Part shown: positions 14,096 to 19,841 of the stretch, piece by piece
Numbering within the stretch: the first letter of the stretch is position 1
How the letters are laid out: each line of letters opens with the position of its first letter
From: an uncultured Flavobacteriales bacterium
GTDB taxonomy: Bacteria > Bacteroidota > Bacteroidia > Flavobacteriales_D > Sanyastnellaceae
DNA length: 36,976 nt
Reading direction: 5' to 3'
NCBI GenBank assembly: GCA_913051865.1
Contig: CAJXHE010000009.1
Coordinates: 1 to 36,976, forward strand
The notes under the pieces: model-generated
The model's input: only the letters and a program-made list of their open reading frames with translations
Told to the model about the DNA's origin: nothing
The model's database searches: none
Translations under genes and position numbers: made by a program

Positions 14096-14127
14096 GTGGT
14101 GAAGATATTCTATAAGATTGTAAATGA

Positions 14128-14159
14128 ACAAAAGCCGATCCGTGAGAATCGACTTTTGT
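14128..14159 (-). terminator. Likely intrinsic terminator of the Lacal_2735-SRPBCC-fasciclin operon
   Basis: On the minus strand, ACAAAAGTCGAT-TCTCACGG-ATCGGCTTTTGT forms a 12-bp stem with one G-U wobble and an 8-nt loop, ending in a T-rich tract (TTTTGTT). Confidence 0.6.
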
Positions 14160-14216
14160 CATATACATTGTATTGCATTGGGTTTGATTGCAATCTGCTT
14201 TCTAAGTCCTATGCTG

Positions 14217-14390
14217 TTACTTTTCAGGTTCTAGCTCCAACATCAATTTTTGAATTTCATTTGCTTTTGACGTTGCTTCGTCACTCAGCTTTCTATTCTT
14301 TGTCGAGAGCACAAACGCCTGCTTCATGAGTTTTTTATATTCAGAATTTAGTTTATCGTACTTTGATTTTTTTCTAAAAAAACGTATCAT
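14217..14390 (-). CDS. Lacal_2735-like small protein, 57 aa (missed by the ORF track)
   Basis: Own translation: MIRFFRKKSKYDKLNSEYKKLMKQAFVLSTKNRKLSDEATSKANEIQKLMLELEPEK. Matches the remembered pattern of short flavobacterial Lacal_2735 proteins. Its ATG overlaps the SRPBCC stop (ATGA, 4 nt). Confidence 0.8.
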   Translation of the reverse strand: MIRFFRKKSKYDKLNSEYKKLMKQAFVLSTKNRKLSDEATSKANEIQKLMLELEPEK

Positions 14391-14848
14391 GAGTTAAATA
14401 TTTTGTTTAAAGCAACTTTGCGGTAGTCAAAAACTGTCTTTAGCTTTCTTCGAATAAATATAAAGTTGACAAAGTCACCGATAATTCCAAAAGGCAGTGC
14501 ATATGTGACGATGTCTGTCATGCGAACATGATCTTCGTCAATCACTTTAAACATGTGCTGGTGATGCCATAATTTGTAGGGTCCATATACCTGTTTGTCA
14601 ATGAAGTAGTTTTGGTTTTTTACATGACTGATTTCTGTCACCCACTTGACACCTATATTAAAAAGTGGCGTGATTCTGTAGGTAATGATCATACCTTCCG
14701 ACATCTCCGTATGAGTTGATGTCATCATCTTAAAGCCAAGTTTTGAAGGCGTTAGCTTTTTGAGATTTGAAGGGTCAGATACGAAATTCCATAGATTTTC
14801 TATATCAGTCTTTACAACCTGTTCATCGTGTATTTGGTAATAACCCAT
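14387..14848 (-). CDS. SRPBCC family protein (START/polyketide-cyclase-like)
   Basis: DIENLWNFVSDPSNLKKLTPSKLGFKM...WVTEISHV...YGPYKLWHHQHMFKVIDEDHVRMTDIVTYALPFG. Confidence 0.85.
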   Translation of the reverse strand: MGYYQIHDEQVVKTDIENLWNFVSDPSNLKKLTPSKLGFKMMTSTHTEMSEGMIITYRITPLFNIGVKWVTEISHVKNQNYFIDKQVYGPYKLWHHQHMFKVIDEDHVRMTDIVTYALPFGIIGDFVNFIFIRRKLKTVFDYRKVALNKIFNS

Positions 14849-14869
14849 AATGAATTTTGGCCTTTAAAC

Positions 14870-16735
14870 TTATTGAATCGTTACAAACCTCTTGACTGTC
14901 TTTCCAGACTTGTAGATATCGAATACAATCGTATTTGTGGTGTTGTAATTGATTTCTCTTCCTGTGATGTCTACGCTGTACATGTAGATGTCATTTGAAA
15001 TGAGAGCGCTTGATTCAATGATGTTGCTTGTTGTCGTTTCGATGACTGCATCAATCACGTGCACAACGCCATTGTCAGCAGTTATGTCTGCGATAATCAC
15101 TGTTGCATTGCCAATCATAACTACGCCGTCTGCGATAGACACCATCACTTCACCTCCTTGCAATGTTGTAATCATCATGCCATCGGATAAATCTGTGCTC
15201 AATGTCGTTCCTGAAACAACATGATTTAGAAGTATTTGAGTGAGGTCTCCAGTTGGATCTGCAAGCAATGCATCAATAACATCTGCAGGAATTAAGCTGA
15301 ACGCGTCATCTGTCGGGGCAAATACTGTAAAGGGTCCTTCAGACGCGAGTGTTTCATCTAATCCTGCTGCTACAATTGCTGCCTCGAGTGTGGTGTGCAC
15401 CTCTGAGTTTGCAATAATGTCGAACACTGTGTTGGTTGGCATTTCAGGCTGTAAGATTGCATCAATCACATGTACAACGCCATTGTCTGCAATTATATCT
15501 GCGACAATCACTGTTGCATTGTCAATCTTCACCACGCCATCTGTGATGGATACCATCACTTCACTTCCTTGCAAAGTTTCGATCATCATTCCATCAGATA
15601 GGTCTGTGCTCAACGCTGTTCCTGACACAACATGGTTTAATAGTATTTGAGTCAATAGTCCAGTTGGATCTGCGAGTAATGTTTCAAGAATGTTTGCAGG
15701 GACTAAGCTGAATGCATCATCTGTCGGTGCAAATACTGTAAAGGGTCCTTCAGACGCAAGTGTTCCATCCAGTCCTGCAGCAACAATTGCTGTCTCTAGC
15801 GTGGCGTGCACCTCTGAGTTTGCAATAATGTCAAATACTGTGTTGGTTGGCATTTCAGGCTGTAATACTGCGTCGATTACATGAACAACGCCATTGTCTG
15901 CAGATATATCTGCGACGATTACTGTTGCGTTACCAATCATCACCATGCCATCTGTAATGGATACCATCACTTCACCTCCTTGTAAAGTTTCGATCATCAT
16001 TCCATCAGATAAATCTGTACTCATTGCTGTTCCAGATACAACGTGGTTGAGAAGTATTTGTGTGAGGTCTCCAGTTGGATCTGCAAGCAAGGTCTCAAGT
16101 ACGTTTTCAGGAATTACGCTGAACGCATCATCTGTTGGCGCAAATACTGTAAAGGGGCCATCAGAAGCGAGTGTTCCATCTAGTCCTGCTGCAACTACAG
16201 CTGCCTCGAGTGTTGTGTGTACCTCTGAGTTTGCAATTATATCAAATACTGTGTTGGTTGGCATTTCAGGCTGTAATACTGCGTCGATTACATGAACAAC
16301 GCCATTGTCTGCAGATATATCTGCGACGATTACTGTTGCGTTACCAATCATCACCATGCCATCTGTAATGGATACCATCACTTCACCTCCTTGTAAAGTT
16401 TCGATCATCATTCCATCAGATAAATCTGTACTCATTGCTGTTCCAGATACAACGTGGTTGAGAAGTATTTGTGTGAGGTCTCCAGTTGGATCTGCAAGCA
16501 GAGTTTCAAGTACGTTTTCAGGAATTACGCTGAATGCATCATCTGTTGGCGCAAATACTGTAAAGGGTCCATCAGAGGAGAGTGTTCCATCTAATCCTGC
16601 TGCAACTACAGCTGCCTCAAGTGTTGTGTGTACTTCCGAGTTTTCAATAATTCCGAAAATAGATTGAGAAAAAGCATTGAGTGAAAATAAGCATAGCAGT
16701 GATGCTAAAAAGAAATTATTGTTAAAGAGTTTCAT
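14870..16735 (-). CDS. Secreted protein with four tandem FAS1 (fasciclin) domains and a short T9SS-like C-terminal tail
   Basis: Signal peptide; four copies of VFDIIANSEVHTTLEAAVVAAGLDGTL..GPFTVFAPTDDAFS...LLNHVVSGTAMSTDLSDGMMIETLQGGEVMVSI...GVVHVIDAVLQP; C-term SVDITGREINYN...IVFDIYKSGKTVKRFVTIQ. Confidence 0.95.
   Translation of the reverse strand: MKLFNNNFFLASLLCLFSLNAFSQSIFGIIENSEVHTTLEAAVVAAGLDGTLSSDGPFTVFAPTDDAFSVIPENVLETLLADPTGDLTQILLNHVVSGTAMSTDLSDGMMIETLQGGEVMVSITDGMVMIGNATVIVADISADNGVVHVIDAVLQPEMPTNTVFDIIANSEVHTTLEAAVVAAGLDGTLASDGPFTVFAPTDDAFSVIPENVLETLLADPTGDLTQILLNHVVSGTAMSTDLSDGMMIETLQGGEVMVSITDGMVMIGNATVIVADISADNGVVHVIDAVLQPEMPTNTVFDIIANSEVHATLETAIVAAGLDGTLASEGPFTVFAPTDDAFSLVPANILETLLADPTGLLTQILLNHVVSGTALSTDLSDGMMIETLQGSEVMVSITDGVVKIDNATVIVADIIADNGVVHVIDAILQPEMPTNTVFDIIANSEVHTTLEAAIVAAGLDETLASEGPFTVFAPTDDAFSLIPADVIDALLADPTGDLTQILLNHVVSGTTLSTDLSDGMMITTLQGGEVMVSIADGVVMIGNATVIIADITADNGVVHVIDAVIETTTSNIIESSALISNDIYMYSVDITGREINYNTTNTIVFDIYKSGKTVKRFVTIQ
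15831..16500. repeat. 411-bp tandem repeat unit inside the fasciclin gene, with a 259-bp block that is identical by eye in two copies
   Basis: 15831-16089 and 16242-16500 read identically at an offset of 411 bp (137 codons). Confidence 0.88.
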
Positions 16736-16737
16736 TT

Positions 16738-16771
16738 TTTGTATAGTTATTTAATAAAAAGTTTATACAAA
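16738..16771. promoter_or_regulatory. Inverted repeat TTTGTATA-N18-TATACAAA upstream of the fasciclin gene
   Basis: Arms at 16738-16745 and 16764-16771; the distal arm overlaps the predicted minus-strand -7 element. Confidence 0.6.
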
Positions 16772-16800
16772 CATAAGAACATGAAAAGCCTTAAACCAAA
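16768..16800 (-). promoter_or_regulatory. Candidate Bacteroidota sigma-A promoter for the fasciclin operon
   Basis: Minus strand TTTG (16800-16797), N21, TATGTTTG (16775-16768), matching the TTTG / TAnnTTTG consensus. Confidence 0.6.
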
Positions 16801-16816
16801 ACTTTGTACAACTTTT

Positions 16817-16848
16817 TTTGAATAAGTGTATACATTATTCTAAATTTG
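16817..16848 (+). promoter_or_regulatory. Candidate Bacteroidota sigma-A promoter for the merR gene, with a TGTATACA palindrome in its spacer
   Basis: TTTG (16817-16820), N20, TAAATTTG (16841-16848); palindrome TGTATACA at 16827-16834; ATG follows at 16857. Confidence 0.65.
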
Positions 16849-16856
16849 CAATCACT

Positions 16857-17732
16857 ATGGCAAACTACTCAATAGAACAATTGTCCAATATAACTGGATT
16901 CAGCAAGTTGCTTATTAGGACTTGGGAGAATAGATACAAACTATTTAAACCCCAAAGAACGCCAACAAACATTAGGTTTTATGATGATAAAACGCTTGTG
17001 AAGGCTTTGAATGTTTCGATTTTAAAGGACAAAGGCTACAAAATTTCAAAAATCGCTACCCTCACGAGTACGGACATTGAAGAACTAGTGAGAAACGTCA
17101 CACTTGATGATGAGATTTATCATGTAAAACAATTAAATAAGGTCATTGAATCAGCCCTAACATTTAATAAATCATTATTCCACCAAGTCATAAACGATTC
17201 ATTAAATCGCTATGATACACTTTATGTTTACAAAAATATTTTGTTGCCAGCTTTAAATCGTATTGGATATTTGTGGCTTACGAATGACATTTTGCCTTCT
17301 CAAGAACATTTTCTGTCTGAGTTAATTAAGCAAAAATTATATTCAAGGATTGACAGGCTCATTCATGACGATAACCAAGACAAAGAAGTGTGGCTTTTAT
17401 TTCTGCCCGAAGGTGAGCATCATGAAATTGGACTTTTGGTGGCGAGTCTAATACTCAATGAAAATAATAAATCCGTCATTTATTTGGGGCAATCTGTCCC
17501 TTTGAAATCATTGGACATTTTAAATGACTATTTTACGATAAGTAAAATTATGTTTTTCGCCATCGCTCAATCGTCTGTGAATAGACTGGAAAAAGTTATC
17601 ACTTATCTGGATGAAACCTTCTCAGGTTCTGAAATCTTCCCTATTGCGAGAATTCAAAATAAGTCTTTAAAAGAATTTAAGAACGTTACAGTTATATCCT
17701 CAATAGATGAGTTTAATGCAATTCTAAAATAA
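16857..17732 (+). CDS. MerR-family regulator with C-terminal B12-binding-like domain (CarH/LitR-like)
   Basis: MerR HTH (YSIEQLSNITGFSKLLIRTWENRYKLFKPQRTPTNIRFYDD), W-x9-EH (WLTNDILPSQEH) and ExHxxG (EHHEIG), then a YLGQSVP Rossmann-like stretch. Confidence 0.87.
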   Translation: MANYSIEQLSNITGFSKLLIRTWENRYKLFKPQRTPTNIRFYDDKTLVKALNVSILKDKGYKISKIATLTSTDIEELVRNVTLDDEIYHVKQLNKVIESALTFNKSLFHQVINDSLNRYDTLYVYKNILLPALNRIGYLWLTNDILPSQEHFLSELIKQKLYSRIDRLIHDDNQDKEVWLLFLPEGEHHEIGLLVASLILNENNKSVIYLGQSVPLKSLDILNDYFTISKIMFFAIAQSSVNRLEKVITYLDETFSGSEIFPIARIQNKSLKEFKNVTVISSIDEFNAILK

Positions 17733-18356
17733 GTGTCAGACTATCATAAAATAAAAGCTTCCGATCTCAATGAAATGGAATCTCGACCTAGAGCCCAGCT
17801 TGTTAATTCTTTAAGTGGGTTTAAAAGTCCTGTCCTGGTGGGGAGTGTGAACGATAAGGGTGTACACAATTTAAGCATTGTGAGTTCACTCATGCACCTT
17901 GGATCAAGTCCCGCGTTGATGGGTATCGTTTTAAGGCCGCCTGGGGAATTCGCGCATACCTACAAGAATATTAAACAGACGAGGCAGTTTACGATCTCTC
18001 ATGTGCACAGTGATATTATCAAACAAGCTCACCGATGTAGTGCGAAATATCCGGAACATATTTCTGAATTTGAGGAAGTGGGCCTGACACCCACTATTCA
18101 TGATGCAAAAAACTGGAAGGCACCCGCAGTAGATGAGTCATATATCCGAATGGGACTTGTCTTAAATAAAATTATTGAGCTGCCGAATAAGTGTAATCTC
18201 ATGATCGGTGATGTGGAATGGGTAGAATTAAATCCACGCGTGTGTGATCAGAATCGTGTGAAGTTTGATTTAAATGACATTTGTATTTTAGGCGTGTATG
18301 ACTATTATAAAACAAGTCATCTCATGAAGTTAGGTTACGAAGAATACACACATTGA
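17733..18356 (+). CDS. Flavin reductase-like (flavoredoxin/FMN-binding split barrel) protein
   Basis: GTG start immediately after the merR stop; RPRAQLVNSLSGFKSPVLVGSVNDKGVHNLSIVSSLMHLGSSPALMGIVLRP. Confidence 0.82.
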   Translation: MSDYHKIKASDLNEMESRPRAQLVNSLSGFKSPVLVGSVNDKGVHNLSIVSSLMHLGSSPALMGIVLRPPGEFAHTYKNIKQTRQFTISHVHSDIIKQAHRCSAKYPEHISEFEEVGLTPTIHDAKNWKAPAVDESYIRMGLVLNKIIELPNKCNLMIGDVEWVELNPRVCDQNRVKFDLNDICILGVYDYYKTSHLMKLGYEEYTH

Positions 18357-19102: not shown

Positions 19103-19235
19103 TAAGAATCCAGGTTGGTTTTGGCTGTTACGTAAGATGTAATTTTTATGGTTTAGAGATATCTTATATACAGTTTCTGATATGTCGAGGCTATAAATTT
19201 GATTAGCTGTATCTTGATGCTTTAAATTATATTTT

Positions 19236-19763
19236 ATGCGATATTTAGTTACTTTTTTCTCTTTTTCTCTTTCTGTGGGTGTGTTTGGACAGGGCATGGT
19301 TAATTGCAGCTTGCTTACTGTTACTGATGTTATTATCAATAATGAAGAATTGACTATTGATGTAGCTGTAAATAATTCCGACACGATGGATGCGCATTAT
19401 CCTTATATCAATTATATCATTGACAGCAGTGGAGATACAATCCAAAATGGAGATATGGACTTGTTTGTGACTTTTTCAAATCAAACGTCATGGTATAATT
19501 ACAACTTGACATCTTCAATTTCACCAATATATCCATTAACAGTATATTTTACATACTCGAATCTAACTGGCAAGGATCCTGGGGATTACACATGCGAATT
19601 GACTTATGATATTTCTCAAAACATAAGTATTGATTTAATCAATGAAAAGACACTATATAAAATAGTGAATACATTAGGAAGAGAAGTGAATCACACGACG
19701 AACCAAATGCTCTTCCACATCTATGATGATGGTACGGTGGAGAAGAAGTTTGTAGTTGACTAA
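19236..19763 (+). CDS. Secreted hypothetical protein with a T9SS type A-like C-terminal tail
   Basis: Signal peptide; C-term LYKIVNTLGREVNHTTNQMLFHIYDDGTVEKKFVVD. Confidence 0.75.
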   Translation: MRYLVTFFSFSLSVGVFGQGMVNCSLLTVTDVIINNEELTIDVAVNNSDTMDAHYPYINYIIDSSGDTIQNGDMDLFVTFSNQTSWYNYNLTSSISPIYPLTVYFTYSNLTGKDPGDYTCELTYDISQNISIDLINEKTLYKIVNTLGREVNHTTNQMLFHIYDDGTVEKKFVVD

Positions 19764-19841
19764 TCCGTTATCGTTTTGGCGTTTCTTGAAGAGATTGTAT
19801 GCATTTCTTCTCGCTAAGCTTTAAAAAGCGAGGCAAAAGAA

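Follow-up and report, generated by a model that had tools for sequence, protein, structure and literature searches.

CarH/LitR proteins, described in Thermus thermophilus, Myxococcus xanthus and Bacillus megaterium, are MerR-family vitamin B12 photoreceptors encoded beside their targets, classically carotenoid genes, and their known operators are tandem 11-bp direct repeats placed across promoter boxes. The LitR-LitS system of Streptomyces couples a MerR-B12 regulator to an ECF sigma factor. In flavobacterial carotenoid clusters (Nonlabens, Sediminicola), a MerR-family regulator stands in an equivalent position; the papers on these clusters give no operator. Characterised CarH proteins block the promoter in the dark as adenosylcobalamin (AdoCbl) tetramers and are released by light (PMC8156234), the core that they contact is TnnACA (PMC9304148), and the light-responsive signature of CarH/LitR proteins consists of GxxW, EH, GxxH and GxxxP (PMC11796333). 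The photooxidative-stress regulon of Rhodobacter RpoE/ChrR includes the fasciclin protein RSP_1409, a photolyase, a short-chain dehydrogenase/reductase (SDR) and folE2 (PMC7074977). Some marine bacteria induce proteorhodopsin in response to light. Work on Vibrio published in 2012 identified RpoS as a regulator and stated that regulators were unknown in all other organisms with proteorhodopsin (PMC3380642), and earlier authors had speculated that photolyase-like proteins might regulate proteorhodopsin in flavobacteria (PMC2668756).

We examined a divergent cassette from an uncultured Flavobacteriales bacterium of the family Sanyastnellaceae (genome bin of 1.97 Mb in 119 contigs, 82% complete); the window analysed is an entire 37-kb contig. 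The original prediction had placed five genes here, with fasciclin, SRPBCC and Lacal_2735 genes on the minus strand diverging from a CarH/LitR-like MerR-B12 regulator that is directly followed by a flavin reductase gene. All positions given for these genes were confirmed, as were the ATGA overlap, the 21-nt gap and the lack of any gap behind the regulator (Table 1). The fasciclin protein has a signal peptide-like N-terminus and is predicted to be secreted. Its four domains are highly alike, the first two nearly identically so, which points to recent tandem duplication. All Pfam matches of the SRPBCC-like protein were below cut-off. The minus-strand unit had also been described as closed by a hairpin plus T tract: the hairpin stood (0/200 shuffles were equally stable) and is the probable transcription end of the unit, whereas no canonical terminator with its own T tract was found. 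Scans for sigma-70-type promoters and terminators performed no better than chance. As claimed, the window holds no carotenoid or photolyase gene. Elsewhere in the same genome there are three photolyase-family genes (contigs C20, C44 and C56), and crtB, crtZ and a lycopene cyclase gene lie on C20. In the cassette, fasciclin faces carH in place of the carotenoid genes, a difference from the flavobacterial clusters. Further along the window (19103-19815), an unrelated 175-aa gene replaces the block of ygjP and then blh seen in loci L043 and L044 of two relatives; the bacterium's own retinal-forming blh, identified by TIGR03753, is near the end of contig C73.

Table 1. Features of the carH cassette and its divergent region, in window coordinates.
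Feature	Position	Strand	Basis and remarks
Strong RNA hairpin 3' of Lacal_2735	14119..14167	-	Folded stretch -31.5 kcal/mol, z -5.0
Lacal_2735 family small protein	14217..14390	-	NF033487, 56.5 bits (cut-off 32); ATGA overlap with SRPBCC
SRPBCC-like small protein	14387..14848	-	Polyketide_cyc, 16 bits, sub-threshold; 21-nt gap after fasciclin
Fasciclin protein, four tandem domains	14870..16735	-	PF02469, 450.6 bits; heads the minus-strand unit
Predicted CarH operator 1	16739..16770	.	Perfect TTGTATA-N18-TATACAA; overlaps -7 box of fasciclin promoter
Predicted Bacteroidota-type fasciclin promoter, TTG-N21-TATGTTTG	16768..16799	-	TTG-N17-24-TAnnTTTG pattern; conserved in G112, G113 and G104
Predicted CarH operator 2	16804..16835	.	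PWM 28.8 bits; overlaps -33 element of carH promoter
Predicted carH promoter, TTG-N20-TAAATTTG	16818..16848	+	Pattern match; present also in G112
carH (CarH/LitR-like MerR regulator, B12-binding domain)	16857..17732	+	ATG start; MerR_1, B12-binding_2
Flavin reductase-like protein	17733..18356	+	GTG start; PF01613, 63.2 bits; zero gap after carH stop codon

The assignment of the regulator to the CarH/LitR type is supported by domains, motifs and predicted fold. An N-terminal MerR winged-helix domain (PF13411, 46.9 bits, cut-off 21.6) is followed by the four-helix-bundle B12-binding domain (PF02607, 37.7 bits, cut-off 23), the domain order of the described photoreceptors. W140-x9-E150-H151 and the lower-ligand motif D/ExHx2G (E187-H-H189-E-I-G192) are both intact, with key residues invariant or nearly so among relatives, and the light-responsive signature is present (G137xxW140, E150H151, G186xxH189, G211xxxP215). 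T. thermophilus CarH was matched in the PDB by sequence alignment (E 1e-14) and was also the best Foldseek PDB match of the AF2 model (pLDDT 85.7, E 1e-14). The B12-binding Rossmann model PF02310 gave no match, which at first spoke against a B12 domain and was overruled by PF02607, the motifs and the fold. Unlike the known photoreceptors, the protein does not carry the corrinoid-tail motif SxT/V x22-27 GG of the classic B12 motif: the aligned position reads FAI and no GG follows. Its score against the NCBIfam equivalog NF052513 (CarH) is below cut-off (77.6 vs 400 bits), which makes it a homologue that falls outside this narrow model. No other such regulator was found in the genome. The genome encodes a cobalamin (corrinoid) adenosyltransferase (PF01923), so the cell can probably convert imported B12 to AdoCbl.

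Overlooked in the original prediction, the 121-nt region between fasciclin and carH holds two 32-nt palindromes of the form TTGTATA-N18-TATACAA, 65 nt apart. Both are kept, at the same or nearly the same separation, in five relatives of the genus (G112, G113, G104, G103 and G106). As in described CarH/LitR systems, the candidate operators lie across promoter boxes beside the regulator gene and contain the TnnACA core, here in both half-sites; in contrast to the tandem direct repeats of known CarH operators, they form an inverted palindrome with a fixed N18 spacer. Such an operator in the divergent region makes light or B12 control of the cassette, as originally proposed, more likely.

Across the whole genome, only one additional palindrome was found at ≤1 mismatch; it lies on another contig (C56:10261-10292), where a rhodopsin gene begins about 51 nt downstream of it. 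The rhodopsin (PF01036, 141.7 bits) is a proteorhodopsin by its D-T-E pump residues and Schiff-base lysine (RYVDWILTVPLMCVE and ADAINK in sequence). The predicted targets thus include fasciclin and proteorhodopsin and are not confined to the classical carotenoid genes. Chance alone predicts about three sites at ≤1 mismatch in this genome, which makes the mismatch count by itself weak, and forward and reversed patterns gave similar numbers at 2 mismatches. Mismatch counts were thus not significant genome-wide, and we therefore used a position weight matrix (PWM), spacing scans and shuffles. The PWM, trained solely on CarH-adjacent sites of other genomes, gave the three sites 35.2, 28.8 (operator 2) and 26.6 bits (rhodopsin site), with the next candidate at 8.4 bits, a gap of 18 bits; 6 Mb of random DNA contained no match of ≥16 bits. 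The rhodopsin-upstream site is kept in G104, G112, G101 and G102, with a different spacer in the last three; across five species the arms are conserved and the spacer is not. The contig of G113 ends at the rhodopsin gene. Before crtB, crtZ, photolyase or SDR genes of the genome, no palindrome was found at ≤2 mismatches. A near-match inside blh on C73 was dropped (14-nt spacer, within coding sequence).

The operator extends well beyond this genus. Scanning all neighbourhoods with the PWM revealed TTGTTTA-N18-TAAACAA at corresponding places in other genera, whose CarH loci contained 52 distinct exact copies with an N18 spacer, 6 with N19 and none at the remaining spacings scanned (12 to 25); the reversed control gave none (the spacing test was repeated with pattern-fetched loci left out and a few loci fetched for, or with, rhodopsin kept). 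Counting both dialects together, 106 sites lie ≤400 nt from carH, compared with 14 in the remaining 1.5 Mb. The dialects differ only at the nn of TnnACA. Position 5 covaries with the CarH recognition helix: TTGTATA occurs only with SKLL/NKIL-type helices (7 calls) and TTGTTTA with xHT-type helices (69 calls), with no crossing among these 7 A and 69 T calls, a further 5 with C or G and 35 loci without a call. One Flavobacteriaceae MAG (L195) has a third dialect, a perfect TTGTCTA-N18-TAGACAA upstream of a CarH with the recognition helix INVHS. We infer that CarH binds the palindrome because sites cluster at carH, dialect tracks the recognition helix and the half-sites hold TnnACA; together with the fixed spacing, this amounts to strong evidence from sequence.

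Sites before rhodopsin genes recur in the host family. Among its 74 rhodopsin-bearing genomes, 72 had enough upstream sequence, and a site was counted when ≤200 nt from the rhodopsin start. Within this survey of one family and incomplete genome bins, the palindrome precedes rhodopsin in 15/72 promoters at ≤1 mismatch (shuffles: mean 0.045, maximum 1) and in 25/72 at ≤2 mismatches (mean 0.65, maximum 3), leaving over half of the promoters without one. Because the species share ancestry and cannot be counted as independent cases, a tally by genus is more reliable: six genera have sites at ≤1 mismatch, with dialect A in g1, dialect B in g3, g12, g17 and g18, and dialect B or an A/B mixture in g4, in agreement with the CarH helices of the genus wherever these were read. 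Two genera (g19 and g21) have no palindrome before rhodopsin, and CarH control of rhodopsin may be indirect or absent there. Overall, we consider it moderately probable that Bacteroidota CarH proteins share a 32-bp N18 operator whose position 5 co-evolves with the recognition helix, and that proteorhodopsin has repeatedly been added to it, which would make the B12 photoreceptor a common direct switch for rhodopsin phototrophy among these bacteria.

Neighbourhoods of carH in related genomes, on whose conservation the original prediction depended, keep the arrangement in three close relatives and, in rearranged form, in two more divergent members of the genus. In each of G112, G113 and G104, the genes around carH encode fasciclin, SRPBCC, a haem-binding protein, flavin reductase and YgjP, the flavin reductase gene coming after carH; in G113 and G104, Lacal_2735 was also detected nearby and blh comes after the carH set. 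G103 has the gene set in rearranged form, and the carotenoid operon of G110 and G111 is headed by a different carH. We examined 80 Bacteroidota CarH loci from a public genome collection for neighbours. Most lie next to crtI-crtB; crtB adjoined 43 of them, an ECF sigma gene 28, fasciclin 7, photolyase 6 and SRPBCC 5. SRPBCC homologues stand beside CarH, crt or photolyase genes in five loci (L179, L180, L183, L187 and L196). L180 groups carH with genes for photolyase, SDR, Lacal_2735, glutathione peroxidase and SRPBCC, and tandem palindromes head the stretch that extends from SDR to carH. On the side opposite carH in L179, the crt genes are followed by flavin reductase and SRPBCC; in this locus and in L181, a palindrome lies between carH and crtI. 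Relatives' CarH-crt-photolyase loci thus hold the accessory genes of the window, which therefore belong regularly to a set of light-response genes. The same recurrence in other Bacteroidota led us to reject the view that the cassette is confined to its own lineage. In many other genera of the family (L049-L080), an ECF sigma gene comes after carH and the palindrome lies between the two (a lon protease gene lies beside them, as read in L050), a pairing like that of Streptomyces LitR-LitS and unlike the window cassette, which has no ECF gene. The occurrence of fasciclin, photolyase, SDR and PTPS-folE2 near the palindrome in the genus and in CarH loci of relatives resembles the Rhodobacter RpoE/ChrR regulon, which responds through another regulator to another signal, singlet oxygen. 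In L150 and L155 (genomes G105 and G106), a palindrome lies between 6-pyruvoyl-tetrahydropterin synthase and epimerase genes, with folE2 next in L150; pterin synthesis beside the palindrome could serve the photolyase antenna. Four perfect sites in G105 (L149, L151, L153 and L154) precede an SDR gene and three genes for secreted or surface proteins, none with an obvious light link. In L259, a double palindrome precedes a PAS-UbiA gene; the fasciclin-CarH locus of L261 is adjoined by a gene whose PAS start is very similar.

Several other readings were weighed against direct light control by CarH. The regulator might bind the palindromes and yet have lost light sensing, being B12-independent like CarA of Myxococcus, itself a precedent for such a shift, or sensing B12 status or redox, in which case rhodopsin would be tied to vitamin supply or stress. 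The unconserved SxT/V...GG motif fits this, as does the flavin reductase directly cotranscribed with carH, which could connect CarH to cobalamin reduction; we nevertheless regard it as rather unlikely, given that W-x9-EH, which separates CarH from CarA, is intact along with GxxW, EH, GxxH and GxxxP, and that the neighbours in relatives are light-linked photolyase and crt genes. Alternatively, this could be an ordinary CarH locus controlling nothing but its own promoter and fasciclin, with the rhodopsin palindrome a coincidence or a functionless inheritance. The number of sites expected by chance in this genome, and the presence of the site in only about a third of the family's rhodopsin promoters, would be compatible with that; the excess of rhodopsin-promoter sites over shuffles, the matching dialects, the PWM gap and the conservation of arms across five species make it distinctly unlikely.

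That the palindrome belongs to another regulator, such as a second MerR protein or a CarH-linked ECF system, with carH merely one target, might be suggested by sites in G105 (83% complete) and G101 (61% complete), in both of which CarH was not detected. It is hard to reconcile with the phylum-wide concentration of sites at CarH, the TnnACA half-sites and the tracking of the CarH helix by dialect, and in G107 (95% complete, no CarH) the two matches at ≤1 mismatch are not convincing beside three for the reversed control; we judge it very unlikely. The original prediction had suggested that the cassette may be a minimal envelope module that responds to light or B12 and stands by itself. Beyond the predicted secretion of fasciclin, nothing indicated an envelope function, and the conservation of the cassette within the genus is set against the dispersal of the same genes over relatives' carotenoid and photolyase loci, where they share the palindrome with crt, photolyase and SDR genes, and against an operator common to rhodopsin. 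A self-contained module apart from carotenoid and photolyase control is thus highly improbable.

We regard the cassette as one branch of a light regulon under CarH, and this regulon probably includes proteorhodopsin. The genes, the palindromes (with their spacing, conservation and placement on predicted promoter boxes), the agreement of dialect with helix and the sites before rhodopsin genes can be read from the genomes themselves; from these we infer binding by CarH, repression in the dark and AdoCbl as the chromophore. With fairly good confidence, we interpret the cassette as the home locus of a CarH-type B12 photoreceptor that controls its own gene and through which light would induce the fasciclin unit, carH-flavin reductase and proteorhodopsin together. 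In the dark, AdoCbl-bound CarH would occupy both palindromes between fasciclin and carH, blocking both promoters, and also the third site, which precedes proteorhodopsin at an unlinked position. Light in the green or blue range would break the Co-C bond and take CarH off the DNA, whereupon fasciclin-SRPBCC-Lacal_2735, carH-flavin reductase and proteorhodopsin would be induced jointly. By analogy with characterised CarH proteins, such joint dark repression and light induction is the likely logic. Points that count against this interpretation are the missing SxT/V...GG motif, the inverted architecture of the operator, the negative search for sites before crtB, crtZ and photolyase (in a genome 82% complete), the family's many rhodopsin promoters with no site, and the perfect sites of G105. 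Fasciclin genes are induced by light or singlet oxygen in Mycobacterium kansasii and Rhodobacter sphaeroides, which fits light induction of the fasciclin unit here.

A link between CarH and proteorhodopsin, or a description of the 32-bp palindrome, was not found in our searches of open-licence PMC literature, which is no proof of novelty. With a predicted B12-photoreceptor operator before rhodopsin genes, the regulation of proteorhodopsin becomes a question of direct binding. The two operator dialects and their matched recognition helices could serve as orthogonal parts for green-light gene switches. CarH absorbs green light, which green-type proteorhodopsins use as well, and the predicted operator before proteorhodopsin suggests how marine bacteria of this kind could turn the pump on in the light. 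If true, rhodopsin phototrophy would be tied to vitamin B12 supply.
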